From the NCBI GenBank assembly GCA_903881505.1, contig CAIRTM010000067.1, positions 1 to 55,363 on the forward strand: a DNA stretch of 55,363 nucleotides. The letters are read 5' to 3'. Positions 1-10,710 of the stretch are shown piece after piece. The stretch is from an uncultured delta proteobacterium. Lineage in GTDB: Bacteria > Desulfobacterota > WTBG01 > CAIYCZ01 > CAIRTM01. The stretch's first letter is position 1; the number at the start of each line of letters is the position of its first letter. The translations under genes and the position numbers were made by a program. The notes under the pieces are model-generated. The model saw nothing but the letters and a program-made list of their open reading frames with translations, ran no database searches and had not been told where the DNA came from.

Positions 1-1
1 A

Positions 2-154
2 GGAATTATTGATTCAATGGGACAGATAAAATTAATTTCCTACATACAGGAAGCGTTTGATATCATTATTAACCCAGGGGAAATAACGATAGAAAACTTT
101 GATACTATTAATCAAATTGCAGCGATGATTGAAAAAAAGCGTACGGAGGTATGA
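2..154 (+). CDS. Acyl carrier protein, C-terminal part (5' end cut by window)
   Basis: The first 153 bases read as the last 50 codons of a carrier protein, ending at a TGA at 152-154. The Asp-Ser-Met triplet near the start (Ser codon at 14-16) matches the D-S-L/M site where phosphopantetheine is attached. It is followed by the amphipathic helices typical of the family and a Lys-rich tail. Carrier proteins hold acyl or aminoacyl groups as thioesters on the phosphopantetheine arm. The next genes encode a GNAT, a PLP decarboxylase, an MBOAT and an SGNH protein, so this one probably serves a dedicated modification pathway rather than general fatty-acid synthesis. The N-terminal part and any partner adenylating ligase lie outside the window. 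Confidence 0.75.
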   Translation, partial: GIIDSMGQIKLISYIQEAFDIIINPGEITIENFDTINQIAAMIEKKRTEV

Positions 155-596
155 ATTACCAAGCCCGGGTATGGGTTATAAACATATTTTGAAAATAAGA
201 TTGTAATAGTAGTAACAAAATCTGATACGACCGGCACATTTGAAAAAAATTGACGCATATTATATGATCGATAATTTCTAAGACTTGGCACTTGATGTGT
301 AAACAGCCTTTAAAATAATGCCATTAGTTGATGGAGGTTTACGGCGTAATACGCCGGTACAAAGGCAGACTCCAGGATTAGAAAATAAGGTTTGCATAAA
401 ACCAAATCGTACCTACATTGTTAGAAATCCGTGCGCGCTGACAGAGCAAATGAGTTTCGTAATTACCCTGACATGAGAGCAAAAATACTAAAAAATCAAC
501 TTCAGATTAAATTTTTTTAGCAGGGCTGAGTTGAATAAAATAATGTTAAACAACATATCAAACGCGGGGACTTTTTTTGCGCACTAGGATGAAGTT
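155..596. other. AT-rich intergenic stretch, no convincing gene
   Basis: This 442-base stretch separates the carrier-protein gene from the GNAT gene. All frames are interrupted often. A 52-codon frame at 317-475 has no ribosome binding site and is treated as spurious. A small inverted repeat (CGGCGT / ACGCCG) lies near 341-355. I see no clear promoter or terminator. Decayed coding sequence is possible. Confidence 0.5.
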
Positions 597-1106
597 ATGG
601 ATGTAAGCATTGCAAAAACTACAGAACAGGACGCGAAACATTTCGAAGTGTGGCTCAATGACCCTGAAATTACAAAATGGCTGAGCTCTATTTACAGGTA
701 TAATAAGTACGATGCGCTATTTCATCGTTTTGCTTTACGAAAAAACGATAATATTTTTTTTACAGTAAAATTTCAGGAACTGCCAATCGGTTTTGTCGGC
801 GTAACACAAATTGATAAAGCTGAAAAAAGCGGCATGGTGTTTGTTGTCTTAGGGGAAAAAAAACATGGCGGCAGGGGAATCATGTCGAAAGCCCTGAACT
901 TAGCTCTCAATAAACTTTTTTTCGAATTCGACTTTCATTCAATCAATGCCTGGATCTTGGAAGACAATAACCCATCAATACGAATGGTTAAAAATAATAA
1001 TTTCAAGCAGATAGGGATTCAAAGGGAGTGCCATCTTGTGGAAGGCGCCTTTAAGAATCGAATTCTTTTTGATATTTTAAAGAATGATTTTAAAAGACTG
1101 GCTTAA
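597..1106 (+). CDS. GNAT family N-acetyltransferase (RimJ/RimL/PseH-like)
   Basis: This 169-residue protein fits the single-domain GNAT fold, which moves an acyl group from acyl-CoA to an amine. The acetyl-CoA pyrophosphate-binding loop is seen as H90-G-G-R-G94, close to the R/Q-x-x-G-x-G/A signature. It is preceded by the beta strand carrying the G-F-V-G motif (65-68) and followed by the E-D-N-N-P-S-I-R-M helix typical of the RimJ/RimL branch. The substrate cannot be read from sequence. Lying between a carrier protein and a PLP decarboxylase, it may acetylate the amine that the decarboxylase makes, or an amino-sugar. Base composition is AT-rich like its neighbours up to 4815. The next gene starts just after or slightly within its end. 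Confidence 0.82.
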   Translation: MDVSIAKTTEQDAKHFEVWLNDPEITKWLSSIYRYNKYDALFHRFALRKNDNIFFTVKFQELPIGFVGVTQIDKAEKSGMVFVVLGEKKHGGRGIMSKALNLALNKLFFEFDFHSINAWILEDNNPSIRMVKNNNFKQIGIQRECHLVEGAFKNRILFDILKNDFKRLA

Positions 1107-1107
1107 A

Positions 1108-2292
1108 ATGGAGGACTTCAGAAAAATATTAGACGTAGCTACAGGGGTTCGGACTCCCTTTTTTGTCTATGATGCAAGCACAATGAGGGATAAACACCGT
1201 CTCTTGCGTGAGGGTTTGAATCCTCAATTTGAAATTTTTTATGCATTAAAGTCAAACCCAAACATACGCGTCGCGCAGATCATGAGCCAGCTTGGTTTAG
1301 GAGCCGATGTCGCTTCAAGTGGAGAGCTTGAACTTGCAGAAATAGCCGGTTTTTTGTCTGAGAAGATAAGTTTTGCTGGGCCTGGCAAAACCGAAGATGA
1401 ATTAAAAATTGCCATTGAGAAGAATCTATCGTTTATAAGTATTGAGTCTATACAAGAGCTTTTACTTGTTCATTCTATTGCGCAACAGCTCAATAAGATT
1501 GCATGTGTTGGTGTGAGGGTCAATCCTGCGCGTCCATTGAAATCATCAGGCATGATAATGGGGGGCGAATCAACGCAGTTTGGCATAGACGAAGAACAGC
1601 TTGCAGATTTTTTTAGGGCGTTAAAACACCTTTCCCATGTTCAGTTTAAAGGCCTGCATGTTTTTGCAGGCTCGCAAATACTCAATCATACGGTTCTGCT
1701 TGACAGTTTTGAAAATGTAATGCGGATTGCTTTGATGATAAAGGATTCCTATGGGGCCAAACTGGATATTATAAACTTTGGAGGTGGCTTTGGGATCCCG
1801 TACTTTAAAAATGAAAAGGTTCTTGACATTCACGCATTCAGCGCCGGACTGAAGGATTTGCTTTCAAAGTATAACTTTTTTGGTATGTTCCCGGGCACTC
1901 GTTTTTTTGTTGAAGCCGGGAGGTATCTGGTCGGTGAAAGCGGTTATTATGTGACCAAAATTCTTTATAAAAAAGTTTCTCGTGGTAAAACGTTTCTGAT
2001 TACGGATGGCGGCATGAACCACCATCTCGCAGCCACAGGAAATCTGGGGCAGATTTTACAAAAAAACTATCACATAAAAATTTTAAATAAGATAGACGAA
2101 CCCTGCGACGAGAAAGTGAGTATTGCGGGCCCTCTGTGCACACCCCTTGATATCCTTGCCAACAACATCATGCTTCCCCACGCATCGCCAGGTGATCTGG
2201 TGTGTATATGCAATTCAGGCGCGTATGGCTATTCGGCTAGTCCGCTCAAATTTTTAAGCCATCATGAGCCCCCAGAGGTTGTCATCGAGTGA
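1108..2292 (+). CDS. PLP-dependent amino-acid decarboxylase, fold type III (ornithine/diaminopimelate decarboxylase-like)
   Basis: This protein of about 394 residues belongs to the alanine-racemase-fold decarboxylases (DAP, ornithine, arginine). The PLP-binding lysine is in Y-A-L-K48-S-N-P. The phosphate-binding glycine run is G-G-G-F-G, the E-P-G-R motif appears as E-A-G-R, the active-site cysteine is in G-P-L-C-T-P-L-D, and the C-terminal Y-G-Y tyrosine site is present. The usual H-x-G-S-Q is F-A-G-S-Q here. A related family (pyridoxal-dependent decarboxylase, exosortase A system-associated) occurs in exopolysaccharide loci with an acyl ligase and a carrier protein, which fits this context better than lysine synthesis. 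I chose ATG 1108, right after the GNAT stop. ATG 1084 in the same frame is possible and would overlap the GNAT gene. Substrate unknown. Confidence 0.85.
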   Translation: MEDFRKILDVATGVRTPFFVYDASTMRDKHRLLREGLNPQFEIFYALKSNPNIRVAQIMSQLGLGADVASSGELELAEIAGFLSEKISFAGPGKTEDELKIAIEKNLSFISIESIQELLLVHSIAQQLNKIACVGVRVNPARPLKSSGMIMGGESTQFGIDEEQLADFFRALKHLSHVQFKGLHVFAGSQILNHTVLLDSFENVMRIALMIKDSYGAKLDIINFGGGFGIPYFKNEKVLDIHAFSAGLKDLLSKYNFFGMFPGTRFFVEAGRYLVGESGYYVTKILYKKVSRGKTFLITDGGMNHHLAATGNLGQILQKNYHIKILNKIDEPCDEKVSIAGPLCTPLDILANNIMLPHASPGDLVCICNSGAYGYSASPLKFLSHHEPPEVVIE

Positions 2293-2387
2293 CCAATAGA
2301 AATAAAGGGCAATAAGGTTTTTTGCAGTAACTATATTCTGTTTTCTTCCAGGCCTCAAAAAAACAAGAATATAAAAAATCGGATTTA

Positions 2388-3824
2388 ATGATGGCGTTTA
2401 ATTCAGTCTCCTTCTTACTGTTTTTCCCCATTGTGGCCATACTGTATTTTGGTATTCCGCGTAAATACCGCTGGGCTTTTTTATTGGCTGCAAGCTATTA
2501 TTTTTATATGTGTTGGAAGCTTGATTATATCATTATTATGATTGCTTCCACGCTTGTTGCTTATGGATCAGCCATTCTGTCTGAAAAAAGCACGAGGAAA
2601 GCAGTTAAAAAAATATTTTTTTTAACCAGCGTTATCTTCAATTTGGGTCTGCTGTTTGTTTTTAAGTATTTTAATTTTTTCAGTGAATCATTGCAGGCGC
2701 TTTTTAACAGTATAAACATTGTTTGCGACATACCAACGTTCAGCTTCCTTTTGCCGCTCGGGATATCTTTTTATACATTTAAAATCATCAGCTATTCCGT
2801 GGATGTCTACAGGGGAACACACCGGGCTGAAAAGCATTTGGGCGTTTTTGCTTTATATGTAGCGTTTTTCCCCGCGTTAGGCGCGGGTCCCATAGAGCGT
2901 ACCGGTTTTATTAAACAAATACACAATCCCGCCCCGTTTGACTGTCAGCGCGTTACAAATGGCCTTTTGTTAATGGCATGGGGGTTTTTTAAAAAAACAG
3001 TCATTGCCGACAGGCTGCTCGCTATCGTTAATGATGTTTATAAAAGTCCTTCTGAACTGGCGGGCCTGCCTGTTGTGATTGCGACACTATTTCTTGCGTT
3101 TCAGATTTACTGCGACTTCTCAGGCTACTGCGATATTGCGATTGGCGCCTCCCGGGTACTGGGCTACCGATTATCAAACAACTTCAACCGCCCTTTCGCG
3201 GCAAAGTCGGTTTCGGATTTTTGGAACCGGTGGCATATAACACTTTCAATGTGGATACGTGATTATGTATTTATGCCGATTGCTATCAGTAAAAAATTTA
3301 AGGGTAAAATCGGCGGTGTTATTTTCGCGCTTATTGTGTCTTTCAGCCTGGTAGGCCTGTGGCATGGCGCAAAATGGACATTTCTTTTCGCCGGTATGTT
3401 GCAGGGATTAGCGATCGCCGGCGGAATGCTGACCAAAACCCCGAGAAAAAAAATCCAGTCAATTATTACTCAAAGAGTATACAATTTTTTCTGCCTTCTC
3501 GGCACCTTCTTTTTCATGTGTTTTACTTTTATATTTGTGTTTGCCCCCGATTTTTCAGCTGCCATAGATATTCTAAATGGTATTTTTGTTTCAGGTAAAC
3601 ACAAGTGGATTGAGCTTGGCATCAACAAAAATGATTTTTTTATTTCCGTGATGCTTATCGTTGTTCTTGAAGTCGTCCAGTACCTCCAGGCCGGAAAAGA
3701 CGCGAGTGCAAGATTTTTTAAACAGCCAGCTGCCGTCAGGTGGGCAGCATATTACCTGTTGTTACTTGGCATCATCATGTTCGGCGTTTTTACCCCTAAT
3801 AAATTTATGTACATGCAGTTTTAA
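2388..3824 (+). CDS. MBOAT family membrane-bound O-acyltransferase (AlgI/DltB-like)
   Basis: This 478-residue polytopic membrane protein has the AlgI-type opening (F-N-S-V-S-F-L-L-F-F-P), the conserved central block with D-F-W-N-R-W-H-I-T-L-S and the M-W-I-R-D-Y segment, and the invariant MBOAT histidine in G-L-W-H326-G-A. MBOAT proteins of this branch carry acyl groups across the inner membrane onto extracellular polysaccharide (AlgI, PatA) or teichoic acid (DltB). The next gene, 10 bases downstream, encodes an SGNH protein, a pairing also seen as AlgI-AlgJ/AlgX and DltB-DltD. The two probably form the membrane transfer step of one pathway. Start ATG 2388 is followed at once by a second ATG at 2391, and either could be used. 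The acyl donor may be the carrier protein at the window edge. Confidence 0.92.
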   Translation: MMAFNSVSFLLFFPIVAILYFGIPRKYRWAFLLAASYYFYMCWKLDYIIIMIASTLVAYGSAILSEKSTRKAVKKIFFLTSVIFNLGLLFVFKYFNFFSESLQALFNSINIVCDIPTFSFLLPLGISFYTFKIISYSVDVYRGTHRAEKHLGVFALYVAFFPALGAGPIERTGFIKQIHNPAPFDCQRVTNGLLLMAWGFFKKTVIADRLLAIVNDVYKSPSELAGLPVVIATLFLAFQIYCDFSGYCDIAIGASRVLGYRLSNNFNRPFAAKSVSDFWNRWHITLSMWIRDYVFMPIAISKKFKGKIGGVIFALIVSFSLVGLWHGAKWTFLFAGMLQGLAIAGGMLTKTPRKKIQSIITQRVYNFFCLLGTFFFMCFTFIFVFAPDFSAAIDILNGIFVSGKHKWIELGINKNDFFISVMLIVVLEVVQYLQAGKDASARFFKQPAAVRWAAYYLLLLGIIMFGVFTPNKFMYMQF

Positions 3825-3834
3825 AGTTTAGAAT

Positions 3835-4815
3835 ATGAGAAAATTTATTTTCAGGACGGTCTTGTTTGCAGCTATGGGAGTGCTCCTGCTTGCGGGTATC
3901 AGCGTTATTAATAAAAAATTGATTTTAGACAAGTTATATGCCCCTCAAAATGTTGTTTTAAGCAGAGAAACAAACCTGATTATTATCGGTGATTCTTCTC
4001 TCGAGTATTCATACAATCCTGCAATCATCAAAAACTCTATCAACAATGCGAGGCCTGCTGAAAATTATTTTTATTCATACTACAAACTGAAGTTTATTTT
4101 AGAAAAAAATAAGCACGTTAAAACAGTTGTGCTGGGCTACGGTTATCACAACCTGTCAAAAAACCGGGACGCTGATATAATGCCCTCAAAAATGTCCCTC
4201 CAGTTTTATAACCGCTACTTTATGCTCCTTGACGCAACGGGCAGAAAAGAAATACAAAAATTAGACATGAATTATCTTTTTTGTTATGCCAAATTTTGCC
4301 TTGGCATTCCTCTTGAGTTTTATAAAAATATGGATCTTATCGTTGATCTGCTCCTTGGTAAATTTGACCACACAAAATATCCATTCTGGGGGGATTTCTC
4401 AAAGGATAAGAAGCTGAGATTGAATGTGGCTTTTGAAAAAATGCTCGATGCGGAAGTGGTCGGTTCATTTTATAACGGGAATACTATCGCCGGAAAATCA
4501 CCCGTAATGAGCGCATACCTGGTGAAAATTGCAGAGCTGTGCAGCCGTAATAACATACAATTGATTCTGCTTGCCACGCCTGTACATAAAGATTACCTGA
4601 GCAGGGTGCCTCCCTATTACATGGAATTAAATTCAGAGATGCTGGTTTTCTTGAAAAAACGATATCCGGATATCAGATATTATGATTATTCGTCCCTGCT
4701 GACAGATGATTCGTTCTTCCTTGATCCGGGGCACCTGAACCATAGGGGCGCCGATATTTTTACCGCCGAGCTAAAATTAAAAATATCTCAAGAACACTGC
4801 TGCGGCCGCTCCTGA
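3835..4815 (+). CDS. Membrane-anchored SGNH-fold protein, MBOAT partner (DltD/AlgJ-like)
   Basis: This 326-residue protein has one N-terminal membrane segment (about residues 5-24) and an extracytoplasmic domain. The block I G-D-S motif (G52-D53-S54) supplies the putative catalytic serine, and D297-P-G-H300 near the C-terminus supplies the Asp/His pair. The G-Y-G-Y-H-N-L segment (about 100-107) probably corresponds to a middle SGNH block. SGNH proteins next to MBOATs transfer or remove acyl groups on extracellular polymers. The gene follows the MBOAT gene by 10 bases, so they are likely cotranscribed. It is the last AT-rich gene; base composition changes right after its stop. I cannot tell from sequence whether it acts as transferase, esterase or scaffold. 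Confidence 0.75.
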   Translation: MRKFIFRTVLFAAMGVLLLAGISVINKKLILDKLYAPQNVVLSRETNLIIIGDSSLEYSYNPAIIKNSINNARPAENYFYSYYKLKFILEKNKHVKTVVLGYGYHNLSKNRDADIMPSKMSLQFYNRYFMLLDATGRKEIQKLDMNYLFCYAKFCLGIPLEFYKNMDLIVDLLLGKFDHTKYPFWGDFSKDKKLRLNVAFEKMLDAEVVGSFYNGNTIAGKSPVMSAYLVKIAELCSRNNIQLILLATPVHKDYLSRVPPYYMELNSEMLVFLKKRYPDIRYYDYSSLLTDDSFFLDPGHLNHRGADIFTAELKLKISQEHCCGRS

Positions 4816-5018
4816 AGTTGTCGCTGTATGCTCCTCCATGCATACCTGCCATCTCCTGGCCACTTCCGGAGAAGAAAGGGGATGGCCGTCGATACAGGGG
4901 GCGCCGCGCGAGCGCACGCAGGCGGCCCGACCGGATGAAGCCGTTTGATTAAAGCCCTGCTGTTTGCCGATCCGCTTTGAGCGGATCAGATATTCCAGGG
5001 CGCCGGTTTGCCCGGGGC
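4816..5018. other. Composition boundary between AT-rich and GC-rich DNA
   Basis: This 203-base stretch lies between two convergent SGNH genes and marks a clear change from AT-rich to GC-rich sequence. It holds a perfect 8-bp stem with a 3-base loop at 4969-4987 (GATCCGCT / AGCGGATC), 31 bases beyond the stop of the minus-strand gene. The stem has no T-run on either side, so it would be at best a weak terminator. I see no attachment site or direct repeats. Confidence 0.5.
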
Positions 5019-6119
5019 CTATGGCTGTTTTTGAATATGGGGGTGGTGAACATCAGCTGCAAGTATTGTTTCGGCCACGGCAGAAGCAAGCAGTTCATTG
5101 CCGAGACGCGACAAGTGGATGGGGTCGGAGACAGGCTCCAGCCAGATTTTTTGACCGTTCCTCTGCGCGGTATCAAAAAGCGCAGCCAGTTTCATGTGAT
5201 GGGCATGTTCGAAGCTGCCACACAGCCGTTGCTGTATCAAATATGCCATTTCCATCGGGGCCGCCAATTCGGGAAAATCAATGGTGTTCATCGGCTCATC
5301 AATTATAATAATTTTAACAGCCGGGTTGTCAGCTGCCAATAGTTCGCAAAGGCTGCTCAGATTAGCTTCCATTGCTTTCCAGACTTTTGTTGAACGCATA
5401 ATTGCTGCGGCTCCCTGCTCCCAGTGCAGGTCCCTGAGCATGTTCTTGAAGCCTTTCATCGCTATATTGTCGATACAGTAAACCAGCAGGCTGTATTTTT
5501 TGCATTGAGCTGTCAGCCGCCTGGCGGCATGCTGAATTCTGTTGTCATTTTTATCATCAACCCGTATGAAATAAAACGCCTTGTCATCATCCACAAGGTT
5601 ATTAAAAACACTCATAATAACAACTATATCAGGCTTTAAATGTACCGCCTCATACTTGTACAGGTTGATGATTTCTTCCAGCTTGAATGCCGCGATGCCC
5701 GCATTGATAACATCGAAACTGCCTCTTCCGGCAGCACGGTCCAGCGCTTCCTGCAGCAGCTTCGGATAGGTGTCCGCGTACGCAAGCCCCAGCCCGTAGG
5801 TTGTTGATCCGCCGAAGCAGACGACCCGGACCGACCCGTGCCGGGGCGGCGCGACCTCCGGTCCGCGAAATCCGAGGCGGTTTACCGGGTTGCGCTGGTC
5901 GTCGGAAGGCGTGCATTTCCAGTATATCTGATTTCCCTGCGCGTCATGCACCCGCTCATGAGACTCGTTGTCCTGGCTCCGTCGAGCGGCAATGCCATAG
6001 GTAAGATACGAGCTGTTATCTGTTTTCCAAAACAAAATAAAACGCGTACCGGCTTCAAGCGCCAGCCAGAGCATGGCGGTGCTTGCCACGATGAGAAGCA
6101 TTGAGCCAATGGTTTTCAT
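5019..6119 (-). CDS. Membrane-anchored SGNH/GDSL hydrolase-like protein
   Basis: This 366-residue protein has an N-terminal membrane anchor (about residues 5-25) and an SGNH domain. The nucleophile motif is G103-G-S105-T-T, typical of a secreted SGNH subgroup. The block around V-I-N-A-G and M-S-V-F-N-N carries the glycine and asparagine, and D332-P-I-H335 gives the Asp/His pair. I chose ATG 6119 because the run GGGGGA lies 5-10 bases upstream and the signal anchor starts there; a longer frame to 6203 adds only unlikely residues. Such proteins act on acylated sugars or polysaccharides outside the inner membrane. It is divergent from a second SGNH gene at 6450, and a candidate promoter lies at 6260-6288. 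Confidence 0.8.
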   Translation of the reverse strand: MKTIGSMLLIVASTAMLWLALEAGTRFILFWKTDNSSYLTYGIAARRSQDNESHERVHDAQGNQIYWKCTPSDDQRNPVNRLGFRGPEVAPPRHGSVRVVCFGGSTTYGLGLAYADTYPKLLQEALDRAAGRGSFDVINAGIAAFKLEEIINLYKYEAVHLKPDIVVIMSVFNNLVDDDKAFYFIRVDDKNDNRIQHAARRLTAQCKKYSLLVYCIDNIAMKGFKNMLRDLHWEQGAAAIMRSTKVWKAMEANLSSLCELLAADNPAVKIIIIDEPMNTIDFPELAAPMEMAYLIQQRLCGSFEHAHHMKLAALFDTAQRNGQKIWLEPVSDPIHLSRLGNELLASAVAETILAADVHHPHIQKQP

Positions 6120-6449
6120 GTTTCCCCCATGGTGCAGCTTTCTGATGCCTCGATCCGGACACCTCCCGGGCTGCTGTTCCGTTCCGCAGCATAACGGAAT
6201 CAATCGCGAGGCATATGGGCAACAGAATTTTCTTGCTTTTTTACTGGACGTTTCCTGTGAAAATAAATCATGACACCGGGGGTGTCAATCACAAAATATA
6301 ATTGGAATACCGCTGTGCCGTCGGGGAGAGGCGGGCAGCTTGAAAAATTGCTTTAAAACCTCAGGAGTGGTAGTATGCGGGGCATGCAATGATACGAGGG
6401 ATGGCGCACATGATTTTCAACCGGTTACAAATGGTATAGATAGCAGCCC
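6120..6449. other. Divergent promoter region between two SGNH genes
   Basis: This 330-base stretch separates two divergently transcribed SGNH genes. It contains the candidate minus-strand promoter at 6260-6288 and an inverted repeat overlapping it (GACACC-GGG-GGTGTC, 6272-6286) that could bind a regulator. I see no gene in it and no strong promoter for the + strand gene. Confidence 0.5.
6260..6288 (-). promoter_or_regulatory. Candidate sigma-70 promoter for the SGNH gene at 5019-6119
   Basis: Read on the minus strand, TTGACA (6288-6283) is followed after 17 bases by TATTTT (6265-6260). A 6-bp inverted repeat (6272-6286) covers the spacer and the edge of the -35 box. The leader to ATG 6119 would be about 135 bases. 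Confidence 0.45.
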
Positions 6450-7676
6450 ATGAAGACCACAAATGCTGTTTTATGCATAAGCTCAATTATACTCGCGTTA
6501 CTTGCCACTGCTATCATTGACCGGCTGCTTATCCGGCCGTGGGCGGACAGCATCGCTATTCCCCGCTCCACGCGCATGTTCTATGAAACCCCCGAATTCA
6601 AGTATATCGCTGACATTAATTCACTGGGATTTCGTGATCGCGAATGGTCATCAGAAAAAGATGATGATCAAATCAGGATCGCGGTGCTGGGAGACTCCTT
6701 TACATTCGGATGGGGCGTTGCGGAGGAAGAATCATGGCCCCGTATTCTCGAAAACAAGCTGCGCGAAAGGGGCTATCGGGCAGTTGTCATGAATCTCGCG
6801 CAGCCCGGTTATTTCCCGTACATGTATGCCCAGTATGCCTCTATTTACCTGCCTGCCCTGAAACCCGATATAGTGCTGGTCGGCGTGCTCCAGGGGGATG
6901 ACCTCGTGCAGATGGCATATGGGGATTGCAGTGAACTAAAAAACCCCTCTTCTCCCGGCTCCTCCATCGGCAAGCCTGATAGGCCCGCAGAGCCGAAACC
7001 AACTCCCGGCAGGGTGTATTTAAAAAATGCGATGGCAGTATTTCTCCCTAACACCTTGCGCGCCTATTCGTATAAAAAGCGCACCCAGTCGGAAAATGTA
7101 TATGCTATCTGGAGGTCCATGGCGGAAGGCATATGCAGCAAATTTTCCGCAGAGCAGTCCGCAAGGTTTGCCAAACTCGACGAACAGGTGAAACGCATGT
7201 TTCTGCGCGGTGAATTAAATCCATCGCTCGTCCAGGCTGGAGTCCTTTTCCCGGATATACATTGTAATGTCTGGGATCTTAACTCCGGCACAACCCGGGA
7301 TTTGATAAACCGCATGGCAAAATGCCTGGAAGCCACTCAACAGAACAGCAGCTTTTACGGCGCGCGGGCTACCGCTGTTCTGTCGATACCCTACGGTATG
7401 TATGTCAGCGAACGCAGCTACCAGAATTGGACACGCATCGGCTGGAAGCTTTTACCCGAGATGCTTACTGCAAACAACGCCGATATGGCCATAAACATGG
7501 CCTGCAAGCCATCGGGAATTCCGTTTGTTTCTGTAACCGAAGATTTCAGGGCTTTTGCAGCCAGCGAAGAACTCTATTTTTCCTACGATGGGCATTTCAC
7601 CGCTCGTGGCCATGCAGTGTACGCCGGGCTTATTGAGCCCCATGTGGCCGAACTGATTGTTCAGGCAGGCAAATGA
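6450..7676 (+). CDS. Membrane-anchored SGNH/GDSL hydrolase-like protein
   Basis: This 408-residue protein has an N-terminal membrane segment (about residues 8-26) followed by an SGNH domain. Block I is L-G81-D82-S83-F-T-F-G-W-G, the block with the glycine is L-A-Q-P-G, and the C-terminal D380-G-H382-F-T-A-R-G-H gives the Asp/His pair in the D-G-H form. A Pro-rich linker lies near residues 168-190. The domain probably faces the periplasm and acts on acyl esters of a cell-surface polymer. It is divergent from another SGNH gene, and with the one at 3835 this makes three distinct SGNH proteins within 4 kb. It converges on the permease gene with 28 bases between the stops. The exact substrate is unknown. 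Confidence 0.8.
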   Translation: MKTTNAVLCISSIILALLATAIIDRLLIRPWADSIAIPRSTRMFYETPEFKYIADINSLGFRDREWSSEKDDDQIRIAVLGDSFTFGWGVAEEESWPRILENKLRERGYRAVVMNLAQPGYFPYMYAQYASIYLPALKPDIVLVGVLQGDDLVQMAYGDCSELKNPSSPGSSIGKPDRPAEPKPTPGRVYLKNAMAVFLPNTLRAYSYKKRTQSENVYAIWRSMAEGICSKFSAEQSARFAKLDEQVKRMFLRGELNPSLVQAGVLFPDIHCNVWDLNSGTTRDLINRMAKCLEATQQNSSFYGARATAVLSIPYGMYVSERSYQNWTRIGWKLLPEMLTANNADMAINMACKPSGIPFVSVTEDFRAFAASEELYFSYDGHFTARGHAVYAGLIEPHVAELIVQAGK

Positions 7677-7704
7677 ATTGTGTGAAAAGGTCCCATTCGC
7701 CCTG

Positions 7705-9057
7705 TTATTTCACGAAGAACCGCCACAGGTAATACACCGGAATGCCCGCCAGCAGCACGCCGATCGAAAACAGCGACGTGGTCGTCCAGGCCATGAGCGC
7801 GGCCGTCATCATCGCCACCGACAAAACGATGTAGAGCAGCGGAACATACGGGTAGAGGGGAACCCGATACGCGCGCGGCAGGCCGGGCTGCCTAAAACGC
7901 ATATACATCATGCCGATGACCGCCAGTACCGGGAATACGCTCAGGGCAAAACCCATGTATATAACCAGCGTCATGGCCGATCCCCATACTACGTAGATGA
8001 TGGCAAGCCCCATCTGAACACAGACAGCAAGCCACGGCGTGCCGTAGCGCGGGTGCAGTGTCGCCAGCCAGTGAAACAGCATGCGATCCTGCGCCATGGC
8101 ATAGCAGACCCGCGGACCGATCATCATTTGAACCGACACAGCTGACAGCAGTATAATGGCGATTCCGAGGGTGAGAAAATTGCTCAGCGCCGGTGAAAAG
8201 AGAAAACCGGCGGCGATGGCGGCGACCTCGTCTTTGCCCATGAGTGCCTCGCCGGGCGCGGCAATCAGAAAAACAAAGTTGAGCAGCAGGTACAGGCACA
8301 TGGTCAGCAGCGTACCCCAGAGCATGGCCCGGGGAAGATTGCGCTCCGGACTGCGTATCTCACCGGCAATGTAGCTTGCGCTGTTCCACCCCGAGTAGGC
8401 GAACATAACGACCAGCAGGCCCAACCCCATGGCCGCAAAACCGGATGCGCCTGGTCCAGCGGCAGGATAGCCCGCTGCAAGGCGGCCGATCTTGTCGAAA
8501 TCAGCCGCGAAAAGCCCCAGGACAATCAGCGCTGCGACAATCATAATTTTGACGATCGTAAGGACATTTTGAACATAGCTGCCTTTTTTCACGCCGACGA
8601 TATGCAGGCCGCCGAAGAACACAATGATCGCAACAGCGGCTGTTTTTTGAAACCAGACATCATCAGGCAGCATGATTTCGCCGGGAGTACCGGAAACAGC
8701 GTGAAGAAAACGGCTGATATACTGCACCAGCAGAAGAGAGCTGGTCGCCACCGGAGCTGCAAACCCTACAACAAGCGAGACCCAGCCCGTGAGAAATGCG
8801 GGCAGAAAACCGAATATTTTTTTCAGGTACACATACTCGCCGCCCACATCCGGCCATGTGGCAGCGAGCTCGGAATAGCACAGGGCGCCGGCAATGGCAA
8901 TGCAGCCGCCGATAATCCACAGCGCCATGACGACCGGAGCGCTGCCGGTCATGTCCAGCACATTGCCGGTTGTCATGAATACGCCGGTCCCGATCATATC
9001 GGCTACAATAACCAGTATCGCTGTCGCCAATCCCACCTGACGCTTCAAGACCGCCAT
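7705..9057 (-). CDS. APC superfamily amino-acid permease
   Basis: This 450-residue protein has about twelve hydrophobic segments. The N-terminal signature G-T-G-V-F (about 23-27), in the first membrane segment, and the following C-Y-S-E-L-A-A-T-W-P-D-V-G-G-E-Y block are typical of APC amino-acid transporters, closest in style to the LAT/SteT group. These are secondary transporters or exchangers of amino acids in the inner membrane. The gene stands alone on the minus strand. A candidate promoter lies about 100 bases upstream (9156-9184). The specific amino acid cannot be read from sequence. Confidence 0.9.
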   Translation of the reverse strand: MAVLKRQVGLATAILVIVADMIGTGVFMTTGNVLDMTGSAPVVMALWIIGGCIAIAGALCYSELAATWPDVGGEYVYLKKIFGFLPAFLTGWVSLVVGFAAPVATSSLLLVQYISRFLHAVSGTPGEIMLPDDVWFQKTAAVAIIVFFGGLHIVGVKKGSYVQNVLTIVKIMIVAALIVLGLFAADFDKIGRLAAGYPAAGPGASGFAAMGLGLLVVMFAYSGWNSASYIAGEIRSPERNLPRAMLWGTLLTMCLYLLLNFVFLIAAPGEALMGKDEVAAIAAGFLFSPALSNFLTLGIAIILLSAVSVQMMIGPRVCYAMAQDRMLFHWLATLHPRYGTPWLAVCVQMGLAIIYVVWGSAMTLVIYMGFALSVFPVLAVIGMMYMRFRQPGLPRAYRVPLYPYVPLLYIVLSVAMMTAALMAWTTTSLFSIGVLLAGIPVYYLWRFFVK

Positions 9058-9396
9058 GGATTCCCTGCCCTTACCGCAGAACGATTTTTACCGTGCTTCA
9101 GAAAAATCAAATCCGCACGCAGCCCGGTTTTAAGACGCATGGCACCATCCCCTTTCTTCTACTTACCCTCCATGAGTATGTCAAATGGTTTTCATGCAGT
9201 ATGTTACGATCATGGATGCCGGCCCGGAGCTTATCGCGCCTTCGACGGGCCGGAATACCCCCTGAAGAGCTGGAATCTGTTTTTAAATCCGGTCGAGCGC
9301 ACGCCCGTCCCGCAGCAATCGCGGACGCGCGCGCGGCTCTATCGGTCTTCAGGATTGATCAGCCGCCCGCGCTCATTCGAAATGGCAGGGATGGGA
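9058..9396. other. Intergenic stretch upstream of the permease gene
   Basis: This 339-base stretch lies between the permease start and the trmFO stop. Apart from the candidate permease promoter I see no feature. Open frames crossing it on the + strand continue antisense into trmFO, lack ribosome binding sites and look like shadows. Confidence 0.45.
9156..9184 (-). promoter_or_regulatory. Candidate promoter for the APC permease gene
   Basis: On the minus strand TTGACA (9184-9179) is followed after 17 bases by TAGAAG (9161-9156), matching four of six -10 positions. It lies about 100 bases before the start codon. Confidence 0.4.
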
Positions 9397-10710
9397 TCAG
9401 CTCGCCGGGCCTGCAGCCCAGGCTTGGCACGATCGCAGGGCCTCTTCGGCCTGGAGCTGCTTTCTCTTTTTGGAGGGGGCCCTGGCAACAGGCCGGGGCA
9501 GCAGGCCGAAGTTGGCGTTCATGGGCTGGAACGTGCCGGGATCTGATTCCGTGAGGTGCGCGATAAGGCCGGCTATCATGGTTGCAGGCGCCGGGGCGAG
9601 CGCGGGTCTGCCCTGCACGACACGGGCCGCCTGAACCCCGGCCCACCAGCCCATGGCGATGGATTCCACGTAGCCCTCAACGCCGGTGATTTGCCCGGCA
9701 AAAAATATTCGAGAGTCGTTTTTGAGCTGCAGGGTGGGACGCAGCAGCATCGGGGCCTTGATAAACGTGTTGCGGTGCAGGCTGCCGTGGCGCGCGAAAA
9801 CCGCGTGCTCGAGACCGGGAATTTTCCTGAAAACCCTTTTCTGCTCGCCCCATTTCATGCGCGTCTGGAATCCGACCATGTTATAGAGGCTCGCTTCCCT
9901 GTTTTCCTGCCGCAGCTGCAGCACCGCGTAGGGCATCTCGCCCGTGTGCGGGTTCCTGAGCCCGACCGGCTTCATGGGCCCGAAGGACAGGGTTTCTCTG
10001 CCCCTCTCTGCCATGACCTCGATCGGCATGCAGCCTTCAAAGGGCTTCAGGTCTTCAAATTCGCGCAGCTGCACTTTTTCAGCCGCCATGATGTCGTCGA
10101 TCAGCTCGTAGTACTGCTCCTGCGAGAGCGGGCAGTTGACGTAGTCGGCTGTTGCCTTGTCATAGCGCGAGGCGCGCCATGCCTTGCGCATGTCGATCGA
10201 GTCGGCTTCGATGATCGGGGCGATGGCATCGTGGAAGTAGAGCATGCTGCCGCCGACGAGTCTGCTGATAGTGTCCGCAAGGGCGTCCGAGGTGAGCGGG
10301 CCGCTTGCGATGATGACGATGCCCTCCGGCGGGATCAGGGTGATTTCACCGCGTTTGAGTTCAATCAGAGGATGGCTGCCGATCTCGTCTGTTATTGCGG
10401 CTGAAAGCGCGTTCCGGTCAACGGCCAGCGCTCCTCCGGCAGGTACGCGGTTGGCGTCGGCGGCCGCGATGACGCGAGAATCAAGCAGCCGCAGCTCGGC
10501 CTTGAGCAGGCCCGAGCCGTTGACAATGTCATCTGAGCGCAGCGAGTTGCTGCACACCAGCTCTGCCAGGCCTTGCATGGTGTGGGCCGGCGAAAAGCGC
10601 AGGGGCTTCATTTCGTGAAGCACAACCTGACAGCCGCGTCTGGCGGCCTGCAGGGCCGCCTCACAGCCGGCCAGACCCGCGCCGATTATGGTGACGGCAT
10701 CTGATAACAT
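9397..10710 (-). CDS. trmFO: Methylenetetrahydrofolate--tRNA-(uracil-5-)-methyltransferase TrmFO
   Basis: This 437-residue flavoprotein makes ribothymidine at position 54 of tRNA, using methylene-tetrahydrofolate and reduced FAD. The FAD-binding G10-A-G-L-A-G15 Rossmann motif is at the N-terminus. The family blocks H-E-M-K-P and [10 protein letters not shown] follow, and later [15 protein letters not shown]. Length is normal for the family. In many bacteria trmFO (gid) lies after dprA and topA, and that order is kept here on the minus strand. A 630-base stretch with an inverted pair of structured repeats separates it from topA, so it probably has its own promoter. TrmFO is typical of Firmicutes, Deltaproteobacteria and some others that lack TrmA, which helps place the organism. 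Confidence 0.97.

Follow-up and report, generated by a model that had tools for sequence, protein, structure and literature searches.

Positions 1 to 4815 of the DNA described here may represent the 3′ part of an operon for polymer acylation, in which decarboxylation on a carrier protein would feed a membrane-bound MBOAT acyltransferase and its SGNH partner; from sequence comparison we favor this reading tentatively, with slightly less than even confidence. The DNA is a stretch of 55,363 nucleotides from an uncultured delta proteobacterium (contig CAIRTM010000067.1 of assembly GCA_903881505.1). This whole stretch, called the window below, corresponds to contig C67 in an assembly of 149 contigs; its position 1 is exactly the contig start. 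An earlier inspection of the letters alone (the sequence-only reading) had noticed a carrier, a GNAT, a fold-III decarboxylase, an MBOAT and an SGNH protein running in one direction in an AT-rich island, and had likened them to the Dlt system with a decarboxylase added. Matches to Pfam and NCBIfam models, conserved SGNH residues and base composition confirm the first observation, and the comparisons below support the second in part.

Gene layout and composition of the island

All five families are encoded on the plus strand within positions 1–4815:

2–154, plus strand, frame 2: C-terminal 50 amino acids of a carrier protein, cut by the contig start; PP-binding (Pfam) E 5.5e-5, phosphopantetheine site IDSMG retained
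155–596, no strand: gene-free stretch of 442 bp between carrier and GNAT, from the stop-to-stop list of open reading frames
597–1106, plus strand: GNAT N-acetyltransferase (Acetyltransf_3), Pfam E 5.1e-14
1084–2292, plus strand: fold-III pyridoxal phosphate (PLP) decarboxylase of the BtrK / TIGR03099 group, from TIGR03099 and BtrK matches, invariant residues and a tree
2388–3824, plus strand: MBOAT acyltransferase, Pfam E 5.1e-22, 168.2 bits to the DltB model, alignment to DltB 6BUG
3835–4815, plus strand: membrane-anchored SGNH-type protein with conserved G-x-S and D-x-x-H (S54, D297, H300)

The GNAT and decarboxylase genes overlap by 23 bp, the MBOAT gene follows the decarboxylase after 96 bp and the SGNH gene follows the MBOAT after 11 bp. 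The sequence-only reading did not mention the 442-bp gap between the carrier and GNAT genes. The GC content is 39.7% in positions 1–4815, 51.8% in 4816–7700 and 60.8% beyond 7700. The tetranucleotide distance between the island and the rest is 0.65, compared with a maximum of 0.22 among equally long segments of the rest. This contrast in both measures suggests, and does not prove, that the operon was probably acquired horizontally. A consensus scan of positions 1–7800 gave no excess of promoter-like matches over chance (21 found, 16.4 expected), repeats in the same interval were limited to short chance-like matches, and neither RNA families nor tRNAs were found in the window.

The SGNH protein has no Pfam match. 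The top fold matches of its low-confidence structural model (predicted local distance difference test score, pLDDT, of 47) are DltD structures 6PFX (E 4e-3) and 6O93 (E 1e-2), which we take as a hint only. We propose that this protein may act as a DltD/AlgX-like final transferase. Two more proteins of this type are encoded downstream:

5019–6125, minus strand: convergent GDSL/SGNH protein, a possible associated part; Lipase_GDSL_2 (Pfam) E 2.1e-8
6450–7676: further SGNH/GDSL protein, from Pfam and composition (intermediate GC of 51%)

The decarboxylase, the carrier and related operons

The best NCBIfam model for the decarboxylase is TIGR03099 with 441.8 bits, below the cut-off of 478.45, as compared to 282.8 bits for LysA. 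Among solved structures BtrK is its nearest match, at 332.8 bits and 42% identity over 380 columns, ahead of diaminopimelate (DAP) decarboxylase at 163.6 bits. The PLP lysine K56 as well as C352, D356 and Y381 are invariant among four aligned relatives. In the tree, the branch that splits the decarboxylase group from LysA has a support of 99, and the window enzyme joins BtrK weakly (85). We rejected an assignment as LysA because a separate LysA-like gene lies on contig C46 of the same genome, because the BtrK score is higher and because the tree separates the two groups. BtrK decarboxylates the glutamyl group of glutamyl-S-BtrI, that is, on the carrier BtrI (PMC7857480). By analogy, it is quite likely that the window enzyme also acts on a carrier-bound substrate.

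Searches at E ≤ 1e-100 recovered the decarboxylase in 2 of 11 genomes of the order (the window genome and G010) and in 6 of 395 genomes of the phylum. No close relatives were found in viral contigs. A fold-III relative with 29.6% identity occurs at positions 232346–233449 of an unannotated 282-kb Staphylococcus phage record (OR844989.1); it is probably LysA-like, and may be host DNA within the record.

A carrier that groups with fatty-acid acyl carrier proteins (ACPs) would have spoken against the sequence-only reading; no fatty-acid ACP model matched the 50 amino acids of the fragment at E ≤ 1e-3. The NCBIfam models that did match were OlsHI-ACP (40.7 bits), DltC (33.6 bits) and AmcB (33.0 bits), each below its curated cut-off. 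The cut-off of the DltC equivalog is 68 bits, and the complete carrier of a related locus, L062, reaches 33.7 bits.

The neighborhood that the sequence-only reading proposed to look for does recur in other genomes, together with an AMP-forming ligase, in four loci (L062, L103, L242 and L063). One of these is L062 (also L105; contig JAPLIX010000558) of genome G010, from the same order but another family, which carries the complete set on one strand:

3884–4141: carrier
4138–5760: AMP-forming ligase
5738–6970: decarboxylase
6992–7522: GNAT
7567–9000: MBOAT
9166–10131: SGNH protein; an equivalent of the convergent GDSL protein is also present

These genes overlap or nearly touch, and GNAT and decarboxylase stand in reversed order relative to the window. 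The window GNAT is 38% identical to the GNAT adjoining the L062 decarboxylase, the SGNH protein is 40% identical to its L105 counterpart, and the convergent GDSL protein is 43% identical to the L062 protein at the equivalent place. The L062 ligase matches TIGR03098 best (419.5 bits) and reaches 181.4 bits with DltA, for which the cut-off is 476.

In L242 (G565, Pseudomonadota), carrier, decarboxylase, sulfotransferase, ligase, SGNH-like protein and MBOAT are encoded on one strand by near-touching genes. In L103 (KSB1), a ligase and a frameshifted decarboxylase gene face a group of SGNH, MBOAT, carrier and FemAB-like genes. The frames of the decarboxylase (8028–9167) and of the SGNH protein (9321–10420) are each split in two, by a frameshift in the gene or an error in the metagenome-assembled genome, and the carrier shares one frame with the FemAB-like domain. 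L063 (G037) encodes carrier, ligase, decarboxylase and an AAC(3)-fold N-acetyltransferase, followed by a transposase-like gene and then MBOAT and SGNH-like genes. The decarboxylases of L062 and L103 join firmly in the tree. Those of L242 and L063 are placed elsewhere, and these separate positions seem to point to more than one origin of the coupling of decarboxylase and MBOAT.

N-acyltransferases of several families adjoin this module: GNAT, AAC(3)-fold proteins (L063, L230) and a FemAB-like protein (L103). Their recurrence fits an N-acylation step.

Three further loci contain the ligase and decarboxylase in other surroundings. In Burkholderia cenocepacia (L197, 4307–14784), the ligase and a BtrK-like decarboxylase are accompanied by a related GNAT and by proteins resembling KAS-III and acyl-CoA dehydrogenases, next to open reading frames that read as regulator-like and autoinducer-synthase-like from sequence only. 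In G669 (L230, 7516–13060), ligase, decarboxylase, radical-SAM-like protein, carrier and AAC(3)-fold N-acetyltransferase are encoded consecutively with no MBOAT. On pSymB of Sinorhizobium meliloti (L193, 8379–11508), ligase, decarboxylase and carrier lie inside a glycosyltransferase cluster; they are annotated as exosortase-associated, and no exosortase is annotated within the stretch shown.

The MBOAT docking loop and nearby carriers

The MBOAT keeps H326 and ends in FMYMQF, an acyl-shuttle motif of the form FxYxxF (with Y475) that is fused to the protein. Its score with the DltB equivalog model TIGR04091 (168.2 bits) is well below the cut-off of 375. The acyl-shuttle motif is fused to the MBOAT in non-Dlt pathways and is separate, as DltX, in Dlt (PMC12148441). 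According to the same 2025 paper, which deals with PatA/PatB, no carrier takes part in MBOAT–SGNH pathways other than Dlt; the evident reason is their use of acyl-CoA. The window MBOAT shares the fused FxYxxF with AlgI/PatA-type proteins; it departs from them in its loop and in having a carrier 2.2 kb away.

The loop in question was aligned to the DltB residues described as contacting DltC (PMC9338922). At these positions the window reads MPIAIS, L062 YPLALN, L103 FPLAKV and L242 MPMIGL, whereas nearly all related MBOATs carry PLGGN or a near variant. Another MBOAT of the phylum without GG, in L050, was opened next, and it has a carrier 11 bp away with an AMP-forming ligase behind it. We computed the association between loop and carrier with reading-frame checks. 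Within the phylum, a carrier lies within 5.2 kb of all five MBOATs without GG and of none of the 59 with GG (p 1.3e-7), with the caveat that the window, L062, L103 and L242 were already known to have carriers. In Pseudomonadota, sampled afterwards, the counts are 13 of 16 and 0 of 48 (p 4e-11), with a query built from MBOATs without GG; the carrier model was partly trained on the known loci, and both p values are raw values for sequences that share ancestry. When corrected for ancestry, the test gives modest support, with about 7 of 8 independent tree pairs concordant and none opposite (p ∼0.016). On these statistics, it is likely that the carrier is the donor that feeds the MBOAT.

Carrier-linked MBOATs also occur in other contexts. 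Five loci in Pseudomonadota (L326, 5636–9295; also L329, L331, L334 and L363) are SGNH–MBOAT–carrier operons that include an FkbH-domain protein, with no AMP-forming ligase nearby. This protein scores about 300–314 bits, above the cut-off, in the three loci checked (L326, L334 and L363). This gene content suggests that the carrier may be loaded with glyceryl, which a polymer would then receive. L332 (766–3459) and L354 (514–1832) each pair a carrier with an adjacent KAS-III-like enzyme, and the MBOAT in the vicinity has no GG loop; the acyl group may be loaded by a different chemistry in these loci. L253 (8549–12798) encodes AMP-forming ligase, carrier, MBOAT and SGNH-like protein consecutively; a FemAB-like gene and another ligase–carrier pair lie close by, and there is no decarboxylase.

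Proposed route, alternatives and known systems

In the route we propose, an AMP-forming ligase, presumably encoded beyond the contig end here and present in related operons, would activate an amino acid and load it onto the phosphopantetheine arm of the carrier. The BtrK-like enzyme would then decarboxylate the bound amino acid to an omega-amino acyl thioester. The sequence-only reading had allowed for either an amine or an amino acid on the carrier. The amino acid stands, but a free amine does not, because an amine without a carboxyl group cannot form a thioester; following the BtrK precedent, the amino acid would be bound by its side-chain carboxyl first and decarboxylated afterwards. Our guess for the likeliest product is gamma-aminobutyrate (GABA) from glutamate, or else beta-alanine from aspartate. 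A GABA thioester tends to cyclize, and in butirosin synthesis an acyl group protects it. By analogy, N-acetylation could play the same protecting part here: the GNAT would probably acetylate the freed amine, which would also prevent cyclization, and for acetylation of the carrier-bound amine in particular we see the chances as balanced. The MBOAT would dock the carrier and acylate the tyrosine within the FxYxxF fused to its own C-terminus, at the outer side of the membrane, where an acyl-tyrosine is expected by analogy to PatA and DltX. Finally, the SGNH protein would esterify the acceptor, probably a surface polysaccharide, with this acyl group.

Several observations weigh against this route. 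Since the contig starts at position 1, any upstream ligase is unreadable here and the organism's own enzyme is unseen. A search of the assembly for the ligase or a contig join found no close TIGR03098-like ligase (best 224 bits, compared to 419 for the L062 ligase), and a ligase near the end of contig C118 scored 113 bits. The union is rare, as an MBOAT is linked in 5 loci, window included, among about 89 distinct decarboxylase loci (duplicates removed by hand), and the window and L062 decarboxylases share only 35% identity. L063 is an exception to the loop rule, with a GG-containing MBOAT and a carrier 6.2 kb off. Outside the operon, the MBOATs most closely related to that of the window are of the ordinary O-acetyltransferase kind and have AlgX-like or comparable genes as neighbors.

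This last observation also fits the view, which we consider rather unlikely, that two separate modules happen to be neighbors, with MBOAT and SGNH protein forming an acetyl-CoA-dependent O-acetyltransferase of the AlgI/PatA type and the product of carrier, decarboxylase and GNAT going to another transferase. The closest MBOATs outside the operon lie in polysaccharide clusters beside AlgX-like, other SGNH or acyltransferase genes, the fused FxYxxF is common to PatA, and most ligase–decarboxylase–carrier loci have no MBOAT, some having FemAB-like transferases instead. On the other hand, the loop without GG is predictive of a carrier close by in both samples, the genes nearly touch in the window, L062 and L242, and an MBOAT was apparently recruited beside the module more than once. 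A further alternative retains the carrier-fed operon and changes the role of the GNAT, which would acetylate an amino sugar of the polymer as PseH does; the free amino acyl group would then be transferred and add positive charge like D-alanine. The GNAT belongs to the broad RimJ/PseH type, PseH being its best NCBIfam match at 36.8 bits (cut-off 93.1), and a WbuX-like amidotransferase-related gene lies upstream in L062. In L242 no N-acetyltransferase was recognized, which agrees with this alternative and is one more point against N-acetylation on the carrier. Yet N-acyltransferases of unrelated folds recur beside the module even where it has no MBOAT (L230, and the GNAT in Burkholderia L197), and we regard the amino-sugar role as unlikely.

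It is very improbable that the decarboxylase acts on free DAP, ornithine or lysine for lysine or polyamine metabolism, with an incidental carrier and a GNAT that acetylates free polyamine. The fold-III family does take in DAP and ornithine decarboxylases, and the GNAT has a weak match to the NCBIfam spermidine acetyltransferase model, but the genome has its separate LysA-like gene, the BtrK score is twice that of DAP decarboxylase, and the relatives mostly adjoin an AMP-forming ligase and a carrier. Slighter still is the chance of an exosortase-A-associated module (TIGR03098/TIGR03099) with a role in exopolysaccharide or PEP-CTERM processes instead of Dlt-like acylation. This idea draws on the two models being the best matches of the L062 ligase and the window decarboxylase, the latter remaining below its cut-off. 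Exosortase (PF09721) is absent from the window genome (G000, 96.8% complete), from G010 and from the KSB1 genome, and present in G037, G017 and G220. Since the window genome has none, we rejected the exosortase explanation for it, a correction to the sequence-only reading, which had compared decarboxylase and carrier with exosortase-type loci.

Returning to the carrier-fed operon, its kinship with Dlt is one of logic. As in the Gram-positive system (DltA, DltB, DltC, DltD and DltX), there is a dedicated carrier, an MBOAT without the GG motif at the DltC-docking positions and an SGNH protein, with an AMP-forming ligase in related operons. Unlike Dlt, the window also encodes a decarboxylase of the carrier type and a GNAT, its shuttle hexapeptide is fused to the MBOAT with no separate DltX, its MBOAT and carrier fragment fall far short of the equivalog cut-offs for Dlt, and the ligase of its relatives is TIGR03098-like instead of DltA. 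By the features tested, the predicted system works like Dlt and is not a member of it, so that the proposed similarity to Dlt holds and membership does not. With butirosin synthesis (BtrI, BtrJ and BtrK) it shares a decarboxylase nearest to BtrK, a carrier with an adenylating ligase and the expected decarboxylation on the carrier; no aminoglycoside genes were seen here, and a membrane MBOAT and an SGNH protein apparently receive the product. The exosortase-A module has the same ligase and decarboxylase families and is often found in polysaccharide clusters, but the window genome lacks the exosortase, and the MBOAT–SGNH pair replaces the FemAB-like proteins. The PatA/PatB and AlgI/AlgX systems for O-acetylation resemble the window in combining an MBOAT with fused FxYxxF and an SGNH protein; in contrast, PatA uses acetyl-CoA, and the MBOATs of that type that we compared carry a PLGGN loop and lack a neighboring carrier. 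The dra locus of Bordetella pertussis is built of Dlt homologues, and we know of no decarboxylase in it. This locus is cited in PMC4448142 for D-alanine in a Gram-negative outer membrane, which makes it a precedent for such a modification of the Gram-negative envelope, with D-alanine as the differing substituent.

In the open-licence literature, we found no earlier description of the union of decarboxylase, MBOAT and SGNH protein. These searches returned no paper uniting exosortase, decarboxylase, carrier and ligase, none uniting MBOAT, DltB, SGNH and ACP, none linking FkbH with polymer acylation by an MBOAT, and nothing useful on GABA-type substituents of O-polysaccharides.

The union would join carrier-bound decarboxylation as known from antibiotic synthesis to acyl export in the style of Dlt, and it would place a decarboxylated amino acid on a surface polymer of a Gram-negative organism. 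The docking-loop motif provides a sequence test for bacterial MBOATs that use a carrier, and the loci collected here include many apparent exceptions to the view that non-Dlt MBOAT–SGNH pathways lack one (PMC12148441). There is an even chance, in our estimate, that they belong to a general Gram-negative class of MBOAT–SGNH systems that are fed by dedicated carriers instead of acetyl-CoA, are recognizable by the loss of GG in the docking loop and decorate surface glycans with carrier-built groups, such as decarboxylated amino acids here and glyceryl from FkbH elsewhere. This wider class of carrier-linked MBOATs, several with FkbH-domain or KAS-III-like proteins and no ligase nearby, is the more surprising lead.

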